From assembly GCF_004342025.1 (NCBI RefSeq), contig NZ_SLWN01000008.1:233569-297568 (forward strand): a DNA stretch of 64,000 bases, given 5' to 3'. A program made the position numbers and the translations under genes. Source of the stretch: Kribbella steppae. GTDB lineage: Bacteria; Actinomycetota; Actinomycetes; Propionibacteriales; Kribbellaceae. Below, one piece after another: positions 32,653 to 50,294 of the stretch; the first letter of the stretch is position 1; every line of letters starts with the position of its first letter. Under the pieces are notes generated by a model. It did no database searches and had not been told where the DNA came from. It was given only the letters and a program-made list of their open reading frames with translations.

Positions 32653-33411
32653 GTGGAGATCCGCTCGATCAGTCAGCCCGCGCCCGACCGGCGACCGCCC
32701 GCAGTGAACGAGGACCTCGTGCTCAGCGGGCCCGACTTCGTCTTCGTCCTCGACGGAGCCACTGCTGGGAAGGGCCTCGACTCCGGTTGCCGGCACACGG
32801 TCGCCTGGCTGGTCCAGCGGCTCGGCCGCGAGCTCGCACTGCCGCTCCTGACCGGCTCGACCGCTCCACTCGCGGATCTGCTGGCCGACGCGATCGCCGC
32901 AGTCGGCACCGAGCACGCCGACACGTGTGACCTCACCAACCCGGACAGCCCGTCCTCCACCGTCGCGATGATCCGGGTGGGATCGGACAGCGTCGAGCAC
33001 CTCGTCCTCGCCGACTCGCCGATCGTGATGAGATCACCGGCAGGTGCGGTGTCGGTGCACAGCGACGATCGGATCGACCTGCTGCCCGAGTACACCTTCG
33101 AGGCGGTCCGCCGGCTGCGCAACCAGCCAGGCGGATTCTGGGTGGCGAGCACCGAACCCAAGGCGGCGTACGAGGCGGTCAGGGGTACGACGGATCGCGC
33201 GGAGGTCGAGTTGGTCGCCCTACTGTCCGATGGCGCCGCGCGGTATGTCGAGCACTACGGACACAGCTGGGACGAACTGCTCGACGTGCTCACCGCGGAC
33301 GGCCCGCGCGAACTCGTCGACCGGGTCTGGGCGTACGACGAGGCCGCGCACCCCGACAGCTTCCTCGGGAAGCGGTACGACGACGCCACCGCCGTACTCG
33401 CCTATCTCTGA
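32653..33411 (+). CDS. PP2C-like phosphatase-domain protein
   Basis: This 252-residue protein has the pattern of PP2C-family folds: VNEDLVLSGPDFVFVLDGATA near the N-terminus, SSTVAMIRVG, LVALLSDGAARYVEHYG and the terminal KRYDDATAVLAYL. The usual metal-binding DG and DD residues appear present. Substrate phosphoprotein is unknown. AGGAGA precedes the GTG start. Its 3' end overlaps the convergent DUF4328 gene by 10 bp. Confidence 0.78.
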   Translation: MEIRSISQPAPDRRPPAVNEDLVLSGPDFVFVLDGATAGKGLDSGCRHTVAWLVQRLGRELALPLLTGSTAPLADLLADAIAAVGTEHADTCDLTNPDSPSSTVAMIRVGSDSVEHLVLADSPIVMRSPAGAVSVHSDDRIDLLPEYTFEAVRRLRNQPGGFWVASTEPKAAYEAVRGTTDRAEVELVALLSDGAARYVEHYGHSWDELLDVLTADGPRELVDRVWAYDEAAHPDSFLGKRYDDATAVLAYL

Positions 33412-34382
33412 TCCGGACCGTACGACGGGAACGTCGGGCCCGGGTTGTTGTACCGGGGTGCGTACTGCGGTGGCTCGGGTGGTGGTGCCACGGCAGCGGC
33501 CGGCGGTGTCGTCGCCTGGTCGTGTTGCCACCGGGTGACTCGGAGAAGCAGCAGGGAGGCGGTGACGCCGGCCGCGATCAGCAGCAGGGTCGCCACGGTG
33601 AAGCCGATGTTGACCGCCAGCGCGACCCGGACCATGAAGTCCTGCAGGTCGTAGATGTCGACGTAGTCGCCGGTCGCGTCCGCGGTGTCGGCCGCGTCGA
33701 CCAGGCGGACGATCCAGACGATGAAGGCGAGGAACGCGAGCACGCCGCCGCCGACCAGGATCACCCAGAACCCGGTCCACGTCGCCCACCAGCCGTACAG
33801 CAGCGTCCGGACCGGACCGTGTCTGGCCGCACCCGGTTGCTCCGGCGGCTCGCTCGCGGCCGTCACGTCTTGCACGATCTGCAGCGGGTACCAGAACTGC
33901 AGGATCGGAACGAACCACGATCCGACGATCCAGCCGGTTCCATGCCGATGCGGCTGCCCGTCCTGAACGATCGGCCGGGGTGCCAGCGGCGACCTGAGGA
34001 ACTCGGTGTTCTCCCGCGCCTGCCACAGCCAGATCAGGAACGCGATCGCCGTCCCCATCAGCAGGTAGCTGACCAGGTTGAGCAGCGGTCCGGTGCCCGC
34101 GATCGACCCGACGGCCCGGTCGACCTCCTCCTCGGAGAGCAGCCCGTACACGAACCGCTTGACCTCGTCGTACGAGCTCCACATCAGCGCGGACTGGACC
34201 ACCGCGGCGACCGCGGTCAGCCCCATCAGCACGATGCTGACCAGCGCGATCTTCCGCAACGGCCGGTACCGCGGCGGCACCGGCTGGTAAGGCACCGGCT
34301 GATACGGACCCGGCCGATGCGGCACCGGATACGGCTGCCGGAACGGCTGTGGGCCACCAGGTCCCGGGTACGGCTGCGTCAC
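33402..34382 (-). CDS. DUF4328 membrane protein
   Basis: This 326-residue protein has a Pro/Tyr-rich N-terminal tail (about 1-40), four or more membrane helices and the DUF4328 core GWIVGSWFVPILQFWYPLQIVQD. A short Pro-rich C-terminus follows. GTG 34382 was chosen because GGGGGTG lies at good spacing upstream. Two paralogues occur at 46138 and 47060. The family function is unknown. Confidence 0.88.
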   Translation of the reverse strand: MTQPYPGPGGPQPFRQPYPVPHRPGPYQPVPYQPVPPRYRPLRKIALVSIVLMGLTAVAAVVQSALMWSSYDEVKRFVYGLLSEEEVDRAVGSIAGTGPLLNLVSYLLMGTAIAFLIWLWQARENTEFLRSPLAPRPIVQDGQPHRHGTGWIVGSWFVPILQFWYPLQIVQDVTAASEPPEQPGAARHGPVRTLLYGWWATWTGFWVILVGGGVLAFLAFIVWIVRLVDAADTADATGDYVDIYDLQDFMVRVALAVNIGFTVATLLLIAAGVTASLLLLRVTRWQHDQATTPPAAAVAPPPEPPQYAPRYNNPGPTFPSYGPDQR

Positions 34383-34435
34383 CTCTTTCACCCCCTAGCA
34401 GCCAAGTTATCCCAGCCCTGGGAGCGTTCAACCTG

Positions 34436-44056: not shown

Positions 44057-44863
44057 GTGGGTTTGTCGAAGTCCAAGGGCCGGGTCGAGACCACGAAAGG
44101 CCGGGTCCGGCCACTGGCCGAGTCCGCGTCGGAGAAGATCGGGCCGGCTGTGGGCACCGCACGGGAGAAGGTGTCGCCGTACGCCGAGAAGGCCGTCGAG
44201 CGCGGCGCCCACTATGCCAATGTGGCGGTCGAGAAGGCCGGTCCGGTGATCGACGACGCGCTGGCCAAGGTCGGCCCGGCCACTGAGCAGGCCGCCGAGA
44301 AGGCGCGCGAGCGGTTCAACGACGACGTGCTGCCGAAGGTGACCGCCGCACTGGCGTCGCTGGCGGCCGCCGCCGAGCCGGTCGTCGAGGAGACCTCACG
44401 CCGGGGCAAGGCCACCAAGGCCGCGCTCAAGGGTGAGATCGACGTGCCGAAGAAGAAGAGCCACAAGCTCCGCAAGGTCGTCCTGTTCCTGGGCTTCGGT
44501 GCCCTGGCCGCGGCGGCCGTGAAGAAGTTGCTGACCCCGCCGGAGCCGGCCTGGCAGTCGACCCCGACCAGCGGCCGCGACTACAGCTCCGCCCCGGCCG
44601 GTACGACGTCCCGCCCGGCGGCGACCGAGACCAAGCCCGACACCAAGCCCGATACGAAGCCGGACACGAAGCCGGAGCCGGCGTCGTCGAACGGTAAGAC
44701 CGACGCCCCGAAGGCGGAGTCGGCGAAGACCGATGCGGAGTCGGCGAAGGCCGATGCCAAGCAGGACGGCGCCGACACCGAGGTGAACGCGACGGCCTAC
44801 GGCACCGCGAAGAAGAGTACGACCGCCAGGAAGTCGAGCAGCCCGAAGCCGTCCGACTCCTGA
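44057..44863 (+). CDS. DUF5324-like single-pass membrane protein
   Basis: This 268-residue protein has an N-terminal Ala/Glu/Lys-rich helical region with repeated amphipathic segments (REKVSPYAEKAVERGAHYAN, AEKARERF). One membrane helix (KVVLFLGFGALAAAAVKKLL) follows at about 145-165. The low-complexity C-terminus contains four tandem KPDT-like repeats and AESAKAD repeats. This architecture matches DUF5324 proteins of streptomycetes. The function is unknown. GTG 44057 follows GAGGAGGGA. Confidence 0.78.
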   Translation: MGLSKSKGRVETTKGRVRPLAESASEKIGPAVGTAREKVSPYAEKAVERGAHYANVAVEKAGPVIDDALAKVGPATEQAAEKARERFNDDVLPKVTAALASLAAAAEPVVEETSRRGKATKAALKGEIDVPKKKSHKLRKVVLFLGFGALAAAAVKKLLTPPEPAWQSTPTSGRDYSSAPAGTTSRPAATETKPDTKPDTKPDTKPEPASSNGKTDAPKAESAKTDAESAKADAKQDGADTEVNATAYGTAKKSTTARKSSSPKPSDS

Positions 44864-45537: not shown

Positions 45538-46011
45538 TCAGGTCCACAGCGTCTCGAGCGTGATCCGGGCCTCGAGTTCGAGGAGGTGGCGTTTGAGCGG
45601 GATGCCGCCACCGAAGCCGACCATCTTGCCGCCTGCGCCGACGACCCGGTGACAGGGCACCACGACGGCGATCGGGTTCCGGTTGCAGGCGACACCGACA
45701 GCCCGGGCGGCGCCCGCGTCCCCGACGATCTTGGCGACCTCGCCGTACGTCTGCATCTCGCCGTACGGGATCCGGCTCAGCTGGGCCCAGACCGCACGCT
45801 CGAACTCGGAGCCGCCGCGGACCGACAGTGGGACGGTGAACTCCTTCAGTTCGCCGGCGAAGTAGGCCTTCAACTGCTCCTGCGTCTCGGTCAGCAGCGG
45901 GTCCTGCTCCAGGTGCTGGTCGACCCGGCCGAAGTTCAGCCGGCACAGTCCGGCGTCGTCCACAGCCAGGGACAAGTCACCGATGGGTGAGTCGATCACG
46001 GACCAGCGCAT
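45538..46011 (-). CDS. ogt: Methylated-DNA-[protein]-cysteine S-methyltransferase
   Basis: This 157-residue suicide repair enzyme transfers alkyl groups from O6-alkylguanine to its own cysteine. The active-site VVPCHRVVGAGG is present, with the recognition helix and the YGEVAKIVGDAGAARAVG wing. The start at ATG 46011 (MRWSVIDSPIGDLSLA) matches the family. It is divergent from the DUF4328 gene at 46138. Confidence 0.95.
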   Translation of the reverse strand: MRWSVIDSPIGDLSLAVDDAGLCRLNFGRVDQHLEQDPLLTETQEQLKAYFAGELKEFTVPLSVRGGSEFERAVWAQLSRIPYGEMQTYGEVAKIVGDAGAARAVGVACNRNPIAVVVPCHRVVGAGGKMVGFGGGIPLKRHLLELEARITLETLWT

Positions 46012-46137
46012 ACCCCTATCCTCGCGCCCGCCATGGACAGTTTCTCGCGGTTTCGCGACACCAACCGAGGCCGACACCAACTGCCCCACCACCTGTTGTC
46101 CTCGCCTGGTCACGCGGTGTTGTGCTATTTCTGACAC

Positions 46138-46854
46138 ATGCCGACCCAGCCGCCGCTGGACCGCTGGTTCAGCTCCGAGCGAGGAATGGGCCTGACCGCA
46201 TCGATCCTGGTCGGGGTCGTCACCGTGACCACCTGGGCGACCGCCTGGTCCGATTGGTACTCGTACCAGACCGTCAAGAAGTACGCCGACGACCAGGACC
46301 ACTTGGCCGAGGCCGACCTGATCTCCGGCTCACTCGGCATCGGCGCCGCGCTGGCGTTGCTCGCGGCCGCGGTGGTGTTCATCGTCTGGTTGTGGCGGGT
46401 CCGGTGGAACGCGGAGATGTTCTGCCGCGGCGAGCACCGGTTCACCCGCGGCTGGGTGCTCGGCAGCTGGATCTGCCCGGTGGTGAACCTCTGGTACCCC
46501 AAGCAGGTCGTCGACGACATCGTCGCCGCCAGCGATCCGCGGACACCGCCGCAGACGCCGACCCTGCGCGACATCCCGGGCACCCGGCTGGTCTGGGCCT
46601 GGTGGCTGACCTGGGTCGCCGGCCTGGTGTCGGGCAACGTGGTGCAACGCGGCATCCTGGTCGCCGCGACCGAGCCGGGTCAGCTGCGGACGAACGTCGT
46701 ACTGTCCACGATCTCCGCGCTGTTCACCACCGCGGCCGCCGTCCTGGCGGTGATCCTGATCGAGCGGATCGACGAGCTGCAGACGAAGCGGGCCTGGGTG
46801 CCGTGGTGGGACGTGGATCAGTCGCAGCCCGGATTCCAACCTCCTGCGAGGTAA
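46138..46854 (+). CDS. DUF4328 membrane protein
   Basis: This 238-residue protein has four membrane helices and the family core RGWVLGSWICPVVNLWYPKQ followed by VVDDIVAASDP. Compared with its neighbour at 47060 it lacks the long tail, so it represents the bare DUF4328 module. It is the first of two adjacent paralogues, probably from duplication. Confidence 0.88.
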   Translation: MPTQPPLDRWFSSERGMGLTASILVGVVTVTTWATAWSDWYSYQTVKKYADDQDHLAEADLISGSLGIGAALALLAAAVVFIVWLWRVRWNAEMFCRGEHRFTRGWVLGSWICPVVNLWYPKQVVDDIVAASDPRTPPQTPTLRDIPGTRLVWAWWLTWVAGLVSGNVVQRGILVAATEPGQLRTNVVLSTISALFTTAAAVLAVILIERIDELQTKRAWVPWWDVDQSQPGFQPPAR

Positions 46855-47059
46855 ACCAATCCGTCACGGACTGTCTCATCGGTCGTTACAAGAGGTGATG
46901 GGCGTACGAAAAGAACACGTTAAGTCGACACCCTCCGTGCTGGACCCGACTCCACACGGGTACTTACTTCGTGGTATCAATGTGGCTCGGTCATGCGGGG
47001 GCAGGATTTGGCCGAAACGCCGAACAGACGGAGTTCCAGCAACGCGAGGGACGCGAGAC

Positions 47060-49465
47060 GTGAGCCACCCGCAGCCAGCAGTGTTGACTGCTGTCCAAGA
47101 CCATGAAGAAGAGTGGCAACCACACGCAGCTGAGGAGTTCCAGCAGGTCGGGACGGTCGGAAAGATCGCCATCGGACTGCTCGGAGCGTCGACGCTCACC
47201 CATCTGCTCTCCACCTGGTCCGACTGGAACACCTATTCGGTCGTCAACAGCTACCTCGGCGGGATGCCGAACGTCGATGACGCGGACCTGAACCGCGCCG
47301 ACGCCATCGCCAAGGTCACCGCCGTCCCGAACGTCGTCATCTCGGTCGCCGCCGCTGTGGTCTTCGTCATCTGGCTCTGGCGGGCCCGGGTCAACTCCGA
47401 GGTCTTCTGCCAGGCCGACCATCGCCGCAGCCATGGCTGGGTGCTGGCCAGTTGGTTCTGCCCCGGCCCCAACCTCTGGTACCCGAAGCAGATTGTCGAC
47501 GACGTCTGGCTGGCCAGCGATCCGAAGACCCCGGTGTACGCCGACGACCTGCGCCGATTCAGGACTCCCGCCCTCACCTCCGTGTGGTGGGTGGCCTGGG
47601 TCGGCGCTCTCGCGTTCGACGTCGTGGTCCGCCGGTTCCTGATGTGGATGGACGCGACCGTCGGGTCGCTGCGCGGTATCGCCCTCGCCGGTTCGGCGTC
47701 CCTGGTGCTGACCGCCGCCTCGGCGGTCGCCGCGACACTCGTGATCCGCAAGATCAACGCGATGCAGACCAGCCGCGAGTGGATTCCGTGGTGGGACCAG
47801 AGCGGGCCGAAGCTCACCGCCGTTCCGTCGTACGAGGTCCACCAGGTTCCGTCGTACGCCAACGACGACACCGACGAGCAGGCCGCGATCAGCGAGCCGA
47901 TCGCCGCGCCCGTACGGCAGTTGGAGCGTCAGCCGGAGCTGCAGATGGCCGGTGGCGGTCCGGCTCCGAGCCCGTTCGCTTCGGCACCGGCCGCCGGTGC
48001 CGGCTTCCCGGGTGACGGCGCAGCCGCCGGCGGGTTCCCCGGCGGTGGCAGCCCGTTCGGCGCCGGCCAGGCGCCCGTGGCGTTCGGCGGAGCACCCGCC
48101 GGCTTCGGTGGCGCACCCGCCGCCTTCGGTGGTGACAGCCCCGTCGAGGAGCCGCCGAAGTGGAGCCCGTTCGCACCGGTCGTGGAGAGCTGGCAGGACG
48201 ACAAGGACAACGGCCCCTCGACCGAGCAGTTCGACGCCGTCGCCGCATGGCAGGAAGAGAAGCAGCCGGTCGAGGAGGGCACCAGCTACGAGAAGACGAG
48301 CTGGAGCGACTACCTCGGCTCCGGGAACGACGACCTGCTGTCGACCCAGGCCCCGTCGTCGAGCAACTGGCTGGACGAGACGCCGCCGCTGACCGTCGTC
48401 GAGCCAGAGCCGTACTCCTACCAGCCGTCCCAGCCGGCCGCCCCGTACCAGCCGTCCCAGCCGGCCGCCCCGTACCAGCCGTCCCAGCCGGCCGCCCCGT
48501 ACCAGCCGTCGCAGCCGGCCGCCTCCTATCAGCCGACCCAGCCGGCCGCCTCGTACCAACCGTCCCAGCCCGCCGCCGAGGCGCCGTCCTGGGCGAGCAG
48601 CTACTCCGAGTCCTACTCCTACGAGACCCCCGACTACCTGACCTCGGCGCCCACCCCCGCGGAGGTCGAACCCGCACCCGAGCCTGAGCCCGCGCCCGTT
48701 GCGCGCGCTGGCCGCCGGGCCGCTCGGGTCGCGGTGGACAGCCCTTCGGCGATCCAGCCGGTGGTCTCCTCGCAGGCGGCGTCGGAGCACACGGCGTCGG
48801 AGCACACGGTGTACGCACCGTCGGAGCACACCGTGTATGCGCCGACCGAGCACACGACGCCGTCGTCGCCGGTGTCGGCGTCGTCCGGCTACTACGAGCC
48901 GGCTCCGGTCATCCCGCAGCAGGACGACTTCCTGACGCCGTCGAAGCCGCTGCCGACGGTCCCGTCGTACGGCCCGGAGCCGTCGTACACCGACAACAGC
49001 TACTCGTCGGAGCCGACGTACAGCTCGTACGAAGACTCGTCCTCGAGCTACCAGCCGTCGTACGACTCCAGCCCGGAGTACACGTCGTACGGGCAGTCGG
49101 ACCACTCGAGCACCGCGAACTACGAGTCCACGGACTACAGCTACGGCAGCTCGACCTCCTCCTCCTCGGAGTACAACTACGACTCGACGTCGTACGACTC
49201 CTACAGCCCGACCTCCTACAGCGGGTCGGAGTACAACAGCGTCGAGCCGACGTACGAGAGCTACAGCCCGAACTACGCGACCGAGTCCTACAGCCCCTCC
49301 GCCGACTACAGCAGCAACAACAGCTACTACTCGCCGGAAGAGCCGCAGCAGCAGCCGGAGTACCAGCAGCAGGCGCCGTACAGCTACGAGCAGCAGCAGG
49401 CTCCGGAGCAGGGTGACCAGACCAACACCACACCGCGCACTCACCCGCGTCGGCGCTGGGTCTGA
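47060..49465 (+). CDS. DUF4328 membrane protein with a very long Tyr/Ser/Pro-rich tail
   Basis: This 801-residue protein has an N-terminal DUF4328 module (about 1-270, four membrane helices; core HGWVLASWFCPGPNLWYPKQ). An Ala/Gly/Pro-rich region follows, then six 9-residue repeats of YQPSQPAAP type (about 454-507). The Tyr/Ser-rich low-complexity tail starts near residue 610. It includes stretches such as YSSEPTYSSYEDSSSSYQ and YNYDSTSYDSYSPTSYSG, and ends Gln-rich. The tail resembles eukaryotic prion-like/FUS-type sequence. GTG 47060 follows GAGGGA. The function is unknown. Confidence 0.85.
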   Translation: MSHPQPAVLTAVQDHEEEWQPHAAEEFQQVGTVGKIAIGLLGASTLTHLLSTWSDWNTYSVVNSYLGGMPNVDDADLNRADAIAKVTAVPNVVISVAAAVVFVIWLWRARVNSEVFCQADHRRSHGWVLASWFCPGPNLWYPKQIVDDVWLASDPKTPVYADDLRRFRTPALTSVWWVAWVGALAFDVVVRRFLMWMDATVGSLRGIALAGSASLVLTAASAVAATLVIRKINAMQTSREWIPWWDQSGPKLTAVPSYEVHQVPSYANDDTDEQAAISEPIAAPVRQLERQPELQMAGGGPAPSPFASAPAAGAGFPGDGAAAGGFPGGGSPFGAGQAPVAFGGAPAGFGGAPAAFGGDSPVEEPPKWSPFAPVVESWQDDKDNGPSTEQFDAVAAWQEEKQPVEEGTSYEKTSWSDYLGSGNDDLLSTQAPSSSNWLDETPPLTVVEPEPYSYQPSQPAAPYQPSQPAAPYQPSQPAAPYQPSQPAASYQPTQPAASYQPSQPAAEAPSWASSYSESYSYETPDYLTSAPTPAEVEPAPEPEPAPVARAGRRAARVAVDSPSAIQPVVSSQAASEHTASEHTVYAPSEHTVYAPTEHTTPSSPVSASSGYYEPAPVIPQQDDFLTPSKPLPTVPSYGPEPSYTDNSYSSEPTYSSYEDSSSSYQPSYDSSPEYTSYGQSDHSSTANYESTDYSYGSSTSSSSEYNYDSTSYDSYSPTSYSGSEYNSVEPTYESYSPNYATESYSPSADYSSNNSYYSPEEPQQQPEYQQQAPYSYEQQQAPEQGDQTNTTPRTHPRRRWV
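48419..48580 (+). repeat. 27-bp tandem repeat, six units, coding
   Basis: Six in-frame units of 27 bp starting at 48419, 48446, 48473, 48500, 48527 and 48554 encode YQPSQPAA(P/S) in the DUF4328 protein. The first three are nearly identical in DNA, which suggests recent slippage expansion. Confidence 0.92.
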
Positions 49466-49478
49466 TCGAATAGGACCT

Positions 49479-50294
49479 ATGAGCCTCGCCTTTTCCACGC
49501 TCGGCTGCCCCGGAGCGTCCCTCGACCATGTCCTGGAACTTGCCAAAGGCAACGATATCTCCGGCCTGGAACTGCGGGCCGCGGACGACGAGTTCACCAA
49601 CACCGGCCTGACCGCGGCACAGCGGCGTGAGCTGCGAACCCGGATCGAGGACGCCGGTCTGGAGGTCCTTGCCGTCAGCAGCTACGTCAAGCTCTGCGCC
49701 GTCGAGGAGCAACCGCTCGAGGCCCACCTCGAGCTCGCCGCCGACCTCGGCGCCCGCGGCGTCCGCGTCTTCCCCGGCGACCCTGACCCGGACACGGGCA
49801 TGGGCGCCGGCACCGGTACCGGCACAGCCACGGACCCGGGTACGACGGAGGGGCCTAGCGCCGGTGAGATCCGGGCTCTCGACCGGGTCACGACCGCCCC
49901 CAGGGATGTCCACATCCTGTTGGAAACCCATGACTCGCACTCGGCCGGCCGGAAGATGGCCGCGCTCTGCACCCTGCTCGACACCGACGTCCCCGGCCAC
50001 AACGCCAAGGTCGTCTGGGACAGCGCGCACACCTGGAGCCACGGCGAGACCCCGGCGGAGGCCTTCGAGCTGCTGAAGCCCTGGATCGAGTTCGTCCAGA
50101 TCAAGGAGACGGACTCCCGGCAGAAGTACCGCCCGGTCGCCATCGGCACTGGCGACTACCCGATCCAGGACCTGCTCGAGACGCTCAAGGGCACCGACTA
50201 CCCGCTCTCCCTCGAGTGGGAGCTCAAGTGGCACCCGCACCTCCCGCCGCTGGAGGAGACGCTGCCGGCCGCTCGTGCCTGGGCTACGGCCTGA
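49479..50294 (+). CDS. Xylose-isomerase-like TIM-barrel protein (sugar phosphate isomerase/epimerase)
   Basis: This 271-residue protein starts MSLAFSTLGCPGASLDHVLE. It has the AP-endonuclease-2-type barrel signatures GLELRAADDEF, HILLETHDSHSAGRKMA, KVVWDSAHTWSHGETPAEA and YPLSLEWELKWHPHL, with metal-ligand-type Glu, Asp and His. A Gly/Thr-rich insertion (GMGAGTGTGTATDPGTTEG) is unusual. The substrate is unknown. Confidence 0.88.
   Translation: MSLAFSTLGCPGASLDHVLELAKGNDISGLELRAADDEFTNTGLTAAQRRELRTRIEDAGLEVLAVSSYVKLCAVEEQPLEAHLELAADLGARGVRVFPGDPDPDTGMGAGTGTGTATDPGTTEGPSAGEIRALDRVTTAPRDVHILLETHDSHSAGRKMAALCTLLDTDVPGHNAKVVWDSAHTWSHGETPAEAFELLKPWIEFVQIKETDSRQKYRPVAIGTGDYPIQDLLETLKGTDYPLSLEWELKWHPHLPPLEETLPAARAWATA

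Follow-up and report, generated by a model that had tools for sequence, protein, structure and literature searches.

A long DUF4328 membrane protein of Kribbella steppae carries a conserved, tyrosine-rich tail whose motif islands suggest a cytoplasmic scaffold

We analysed a stretch of 64,000 nucleotides (the window) from the soil bacterium Kribbella steppae. Its open frame at 47060-49465 on the forward strand is a genuine gene that spans 801 codons, begins with GTG and has a normal GC3 of 0.89. The gene, a related shorter gene and the sequence between them were annotated as follows:

46138-46854, + strand: short DUF4328 paralogue, 238 aa, always directly upstream of the long gene (Pfam, synteny)
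46895-47059, + strand: ultraconserved, most likely non-coding leader of 165 bp, which may be a 5' regulatory RNA or a cluster of promoter and operator sites (68% of columns invariant across 37 species)
47060-49465, + strand: gene for the long DUF4328 protein of 801 aa, starting with GTG (orthologue present in 36/36 other Kribbella genomes)
47126-47800, + strand: four-helix membrane module, residues 23-247, with Pfam DUF4328 at 71-234 (Pfam, AlphaFold, dN/dS 0.22)

Conservation was assessed in 37 Kribbella genomes, namely the window species and the 36 others of a set of relatives, with orthologues gathered by a Pfam-guided survey. The short DUF4328 gene was followed by the long one about 980 bp later in 36/36 of the other genomes, and the gene order was largely constant: small upstream genes, a methylguanine methyltransferase, the short and the long DUF4328 genes and usually a TIM-barrel protein. 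Elsewhere in the window, a third DUF4328 gene (33402-34391, - strand) and a PP2C-type phosphatase gene (32653-33411, + strand) converge and overlap.

A Pfam search with the 801-aa protein matched DUF4328 (PF14219) over residues 71-234 (E 1e-39; 136 bits against a curated cut-off of 27.2), and the match covers profile positions 4-166 of 166, as in a full member of the family. The same search found no other domain, and specifically no Pkinase, FHA, ABC ATPase or wall-binding domain. The AlphaFold model of the first 257 residues (mean pLDDT 76) contained four long helices, 23-66, 74-114, 171-196 and 201-238, with two short helices between helices 2 and 3. The Pfam match and these helices bear out the four-helix membrane module that had been proposed from the sequence alone (hereafter, the sequence-only reading). 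Foldseek returned no PDB match for the module at E 0.001 or better, no PDB entry was related in sequence, and the best VIA-align Z of 11.8, to designed helical bundles, is within the range expected of any helical bundle; none of these comparisons gave a convincing known fold for DUF4328. The family is uncharacterised, and no mention of it was found in the literature searched.

In the full-length AlphaFold model, which is of low confidence because its alignment held 3 sequences only, helix or strand of note was absent past residue 243, so that the remaining ~555 residues are probably disordered. Charge-hydropathy analysis placed the tail as a whole on the disordered side, the Tyr/Ser segment described below most strongly; residues 246-360 taken alone fell outside it. 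The earlier estimate of more than 500 apparently disordered residues thus agrees with the ~555 residues lacking predicted structure and, for the tail overall, with charge-hydropathy. The tail is strongly acidic, with 72 Asp or Glu residues against 19 Lys or Arg (residues 230-801), and a search of the K. steppae genome found no other protein with a Tyr tail of this kind.

Nine Lys or Arg residues lie in the loop that joins helices 2 and 3, and few in the other two loops; this distribution, together with the even number of helices, would put both ends of the protein on the cytoplasmic side. Fusions of DUF4328 to Ser/Thr kinases in other actinobacteria (see below) point in the same direction, since their kinase domain, necessarily cytoplasmic, precedes the module, which would enter the membrane from inside. 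By the positive-inside rule and these fusions, the tail is most likely cytoplasmic. Extracellular structural proteins typically have Tyr/Ser/Pro-rich repeats; this likeness and the acidic N-terminus of the protein would suit a tail that lies outside the cytoplasm and serves the cell wall or the surface of the hyphae, perhaps through adhesion or dityrosine cross-links. Such a location is very improbable, as the positive-inside rule, the even helix count and the N-terminal kinases of the fusions all place both ends inside and Pfam found no wall-binding domain.

The following features were mapped along the tail:

47780-47905, + strand: conserved juxtamembrane segment W.PWWDQ..PKL.AVP.Y.nDDTdEQ..i.EPIA, residues 241-282 (alignment)
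48155-48181, + strand: island PKWSPFAPV, residues 366-374 (WSPFA in 37/37)
48419-48577, + strand: six tandem 27-bp units, YQP[ST]QPAA (absent from all 36 orthologues)
48677-48748, + strand: basic island PEPEPAPVARAGRRAARVAVDSPS, residues 540-563 (GRRAA[RA]VAVDSPS in 37/37; dN/dS 0.14)
48923-48982, + strand: island DDFLTPSKPLPTVPSYGPEP, residues 622-641 (TPS[KQ]PLP in 37/37; dN/dS 0.30)
48956-49426, + strand: Tyr/Ser segment with evenly spaced tyrosines, residues 633-789 (spacing against shuffles; dN/dS 0.92)
49433-49462, + strand: basic C-terminal tip PRTHPRRRWV, residues 792-801 (37/37; dN/dS 0.17)

Long proteins of 645-801 aa were encoded in the 37 species, and the tail was present with the same composition in 37/37. 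The motifs WSPFA, GRRAA[RA]VAVDSPS, TPS[KQ]PLP and C-terminal PRTxPRR(G)RW each occurred in every species. The sequence-only reading had named an absent or randomised tail in orthologues as the observation that would tell against it; the comparison has now been run and found the tail and all four motifs throughout. Every long protein terminates in PRTxPRR(G)RW followed by a single residue, or in a close form (PRPHPRRRWT, PRVHPRRRWA), and the coding pattern for RTHPRRRW occurs once in the K. steppae genome. When coding sequences were compared at the nucleotide level, the membrane module had a dN/dS of 0.22, and among the islands values were lowest in GRRAAR (0.14), followed by the tip (0.17) and TPSKPLP (0.30). 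Constraint was looser over the whole WSPFAP stretch (0.41), most other tail stretches gave 0.57-0.80, and the Tyr/Ser segment, at 0.92, is nearly neutral. Synonymous sites of the GRRAAR, TPSKPLP and tip islands vary (pS 0.24-0.48), and the low dN/dS of these islands (0.14-0.30) argues that they are under purifying selection at the protein level. The strongest conservation within the tail thus falls in short motif islands that the sequence-only reading had missed, a pattern which suggests that they bind specific partners.

Six YQPSQPAA repeats had also been described in the tail. The array at 48419-48577 does consist of six 9-residue units, five of which read YQPSQPAA and one YQPTQPAA, and it was found in the window species only (0/36 of the other Kribbella orthologues). 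Because they are species-specific, the repeats are, on this comparison, dispensable and cannot be central. The restriction of the array to one species, together with repeat units that differ between clades, is what would be expected if the whole tail were a functionless, neutral low-complexity expansion maintained by replication slippage. However, four motifs kept in 37/37 species, island dN/dS values of 0.14-0.30 and a frame that is open to the same tip everywhere leave this explanation scarcely credible, and it appears already contradicted by the conservation data.

The Tyr/Ser segment comprises 157 aa in the window species and 80-195 residues across the 37 species, in which its mean composition was S 22%, Y 17%, P 13%, T 11%, E 11%, A 6%, Q 6% and D 5%. 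Asp+Glu amounted to 16%, Ser+Thr to 33%, Gly to 3.8%, Gln to 5.8% and Lys+Arg to 0.4%; Leu, Ile, Met, Trp and Cys were essentially missing and Phe almost absent. The ~180 residues dominated by Tyr, Ser, Pro and Gln in the sequence-only reading are therefore recognizable as a Tyr/Ser/Pro-rich segment of 157 aa, but in the 37-species averages Thr and Glu outweigh Gln. In aligned pairs of moderately related species, identity was 92% at Tyr, 84% at Pro, 68% at Ser, 54% at Thr and 52% at Ala, and replacement of Tyr by Phe was very rare (13 cells in the aligned pairs). Tyr was spaced more evenly than in shuffled sequences in 36/37 species (mean z -2.6), Ser was evenly spaced in merely 2/37 and Pro was clustered in 15/37, all counts from related species of shared ancestry and not independent tests. 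The sequence between the tyrosines turns over across species. The constant composition in 37/37 species and the even Tyr spacing in 36/37 put the tail well above chance, and the segment carries what reads as a signature of selection for bulk properties. Published work has shown conservation of this kind in disordered regions (PMC6634968) and has identified aromatic residues as the stickers of phase-separating domains (PMC9748015, PMC12677899). A retained number and even spacing of Tyr in a drifting sequence corresponds to the sticker-and-spacer pattern of such domains, although part of the even spacing could be due to slippage of short units that contain Tyr, for instance YxPEP. The variable length of the segment (80-195 residues), its dN/dS of 0.92 and the almost invariant tip would also be compatible with a simple tether, in which the disordered part is only a flexible line that lets the islands and the tip reach partners, as in SSB proteins, and the Tyr/Ser composition has no role. 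We think this improbable, as a mere linker would not need to retain and evenly space its tyrosines or to exclude other hydrophobic residues, above all Phe.

In a class-wide sample, DUF4328 was detected in 129/395 genomes. Twenty long-frame loci outside Kribbella were fetched; the 18 that were parsed had at most 73 residues after the DUF4328 module, one further locus (L097) had 64 aa after a weakly aligned match, and one (L096) is the unparsed locus of the 20. A survey of DUF4328 proteins for similar tails had been suggested as a check, and none of the 18 parsed loci has one, so that, with 18/20 long-frame outside loci parsed, no genus other than Kribbella is so far known to have the motif-bearing tail. 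All 10 long DUF4328 proteins of other actinobacteria that were scanned (L079-L084, L086-L088 and L092) were Hanks-type Ser/Thr kinases with DUF4328 at the C-terminus. They share the four-helix membrane module with the long Kribbella protein, but in the kinases a Pro-rich linker precedes the module, which forms the end of the protein, whereas the Kribbella protein lacks the kinase domain and extends C-terminally from the module with the motifs and the Tyr/Ser segment.

These fusions lend weight to the main rival of a scaffold, in which the tail would chiefly be a multi-site substrate of Hanks-type Ser/Thr kinases whose phosphorylated motifs recruit FHA-domain proteins, with Tyr self-association secondary or absent. 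Consistent with such a role, the third DUF4328 gene has a PP2C-type phosphatase gene as its convergent neighbour, and the two are adjacent in all 8 Kribbella genomes checked, Ser and Thr make up a third of the Tyr/Ser segment, and DDxLTPSKP has a conserved Thr in an acidic context. On the other hand, no DUF4328 gene of the K. steppae genome itself is fused to a kinase, and Ser and Thr positions are poorly kept (68% and 54%) relative to Tyr (92%), the opposite of what fixed phosphorylation sites would predict; this poor positional conservation makes phosphorylation less likely as the main role of the segment. We therefore consider a phosphorylation platform a possible but rather unlikely primary function, and one that could be combined with the scaffold.

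The leader upstream of the long gene (46895-47059) had a mean top-base frequency of 0.918 and 68% invariant columns in the 37 species, matching the membrane-domain coding sequence in conservation; non-coding controls upstream of the short gene and after the long gene, cut at approximate positions, had 1-2%. Its frame is open in 36/37 genomes, the exception being the most divergent one (L070). Nevertheless, a coding N-terminal extension was rejected: codon positions 1, 2 and 3 are equally variable, and L070 is out of frame with a stop. Given the flat codon-position pattern and L070, the leader is most likely non-coding. A search of Rfam with 46000-50000 gave no match up to E 1; the RNA fold had a z-score of -1.2, and only 1/44 consensus pairs changed on both sides among very similar sequences, so a structured RNA is neither supported nor excluded. 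No sigma-70-like promoter, terminator or second genomic copy of the leader was found. Exact matches to its core motif within the order were confined to Kribbella, with one- and two-mismatch matches occurring elsewhere. The conservation of the leader suggests tight and old control over expression of the long protein. Just upstream, a TTAC-N5-GTGA dyad (46886-46898) is kept in all but the most divergent genome; we take its half-sites to resemble those of the BldD box.

We propose, at about even chances, that the long DUF4328 protein is a membrane-anchored, multivalent cytoplasmic scaffold or adaptor hub, possibly regulated by phosphorylation. The sequence-only reading had suggested a membrane-anchored condensate scaffold or a heavily Tyr/Ser-phosphorylated platform, and it is partly supported, with condensation still a hypothesis. 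The four-helix module would anchor the protein in the membrane and leave its two ends in the cytoplasm, and the short paralogue encoded just upstream may be its membrane partner. Separate docking motifs on the disordered tail (PKWSPFAP, the basic GRRAARVAVDSPS, LTPSKPLPxVP and the tip PRTHPRRRW) would each bind a putative partner, and the Tyr/Ser segment, placed between LTPSKPLPxVP and the tip, may supply numerous weak contacts that depend on Tyr and could gather the protein, along with its partners, into clusters at the membrane. A plausible switch would be phosphorylation of the abundant Ser/Thr residues, and possibly of Tyr. The sequence itself shows the anchor, the conservation of the motifs and the retention and spacing of Tyr, and disorder is predicted; the high negative net charge of the tail would work against self-association. 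A bolder version has perhaps one chance in a few: the number and spacing of Tyr would be under long-term selection, a membrane condensate would gather partners through the invariant motifs, and the ultraconserved 165-nt leader would control production.

The tail had been called FUS-like. It shares with the prion-like domains of FUS/FET proteins a high content of Tyr and Ser, evenly spaced Tyr and few aliphatic residues. However, those domains are nearly uncharged and dominated by Gly, Ser and Gln, while the Kribbella tail is acidic, rich in Pro, Thr and Glu, anchored to a membrane and without an RNA-binding domain. Since it is acidic and poor in Gly and Gln, the likeness to FUS holds solely for Tyr/Ser content and Tyr spacing. 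Two bacterial proteins offer parallels to how the protein would work. Rv1747 of Mycobacterium tuberculosis, an FHA-domain ABC transporter with a disordered linker, forms nanoclusters, and its phase separation is promoted by PknF; PopZ of Caulobacter is an acidic disordered condensate scaffold (PMC9312465). Like Rv1747, the long DUF4328 protein is an actinobacterial membrane protein with a disordered region that is probably cytoplasmic, but it lacks FHA and ABC domains and any sequence relation, and its contacts would be Tyr- rather than FHA-based. Like PopZ, it would be an acidic, Pro-rich disordered hub with conserved short segments, but PopZ lacks a membrane domain and is helical in its conserved N- and C-terminal domains, whereas the Kribbella tail is membrane-tethered and Tyr-rich. 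Both are working analogues, and the long DUF4328 protein is a member of neither group. The observation is stronger than the sequence-only reading could know, because evolution supports the tail: its bulk pattern (Tyr number, Tyr spacing and hydrophobic exclusion) is kept while its sequence drifts. To our knowledge, few bacterial cases of a conserved bulk pattern in a drifting disordered region exist. With 37 natural tail variants on a fixed membrane anchor, the sticker-and-spacer idea becomes directly testable in bacteria, and the DUF4328 family gains functional leads in a signalling link through the kinase fusions and in motif-bearing tails.

Two further features of the window were recorded. 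The gene at 44057-44863, which is syntenic with the DUF4328 pair genus-wide, encodes a 268-aa protein with weak, below-cut-off apolipoprotein-like and DUF5324-like matches and a Lys/Pro/Thr-rich low-complexity C-terminus. A near-perfect 70-bp tandem repeat of 2.6 copies with 99% matches occupies positions 1-183, right at the window's edge.
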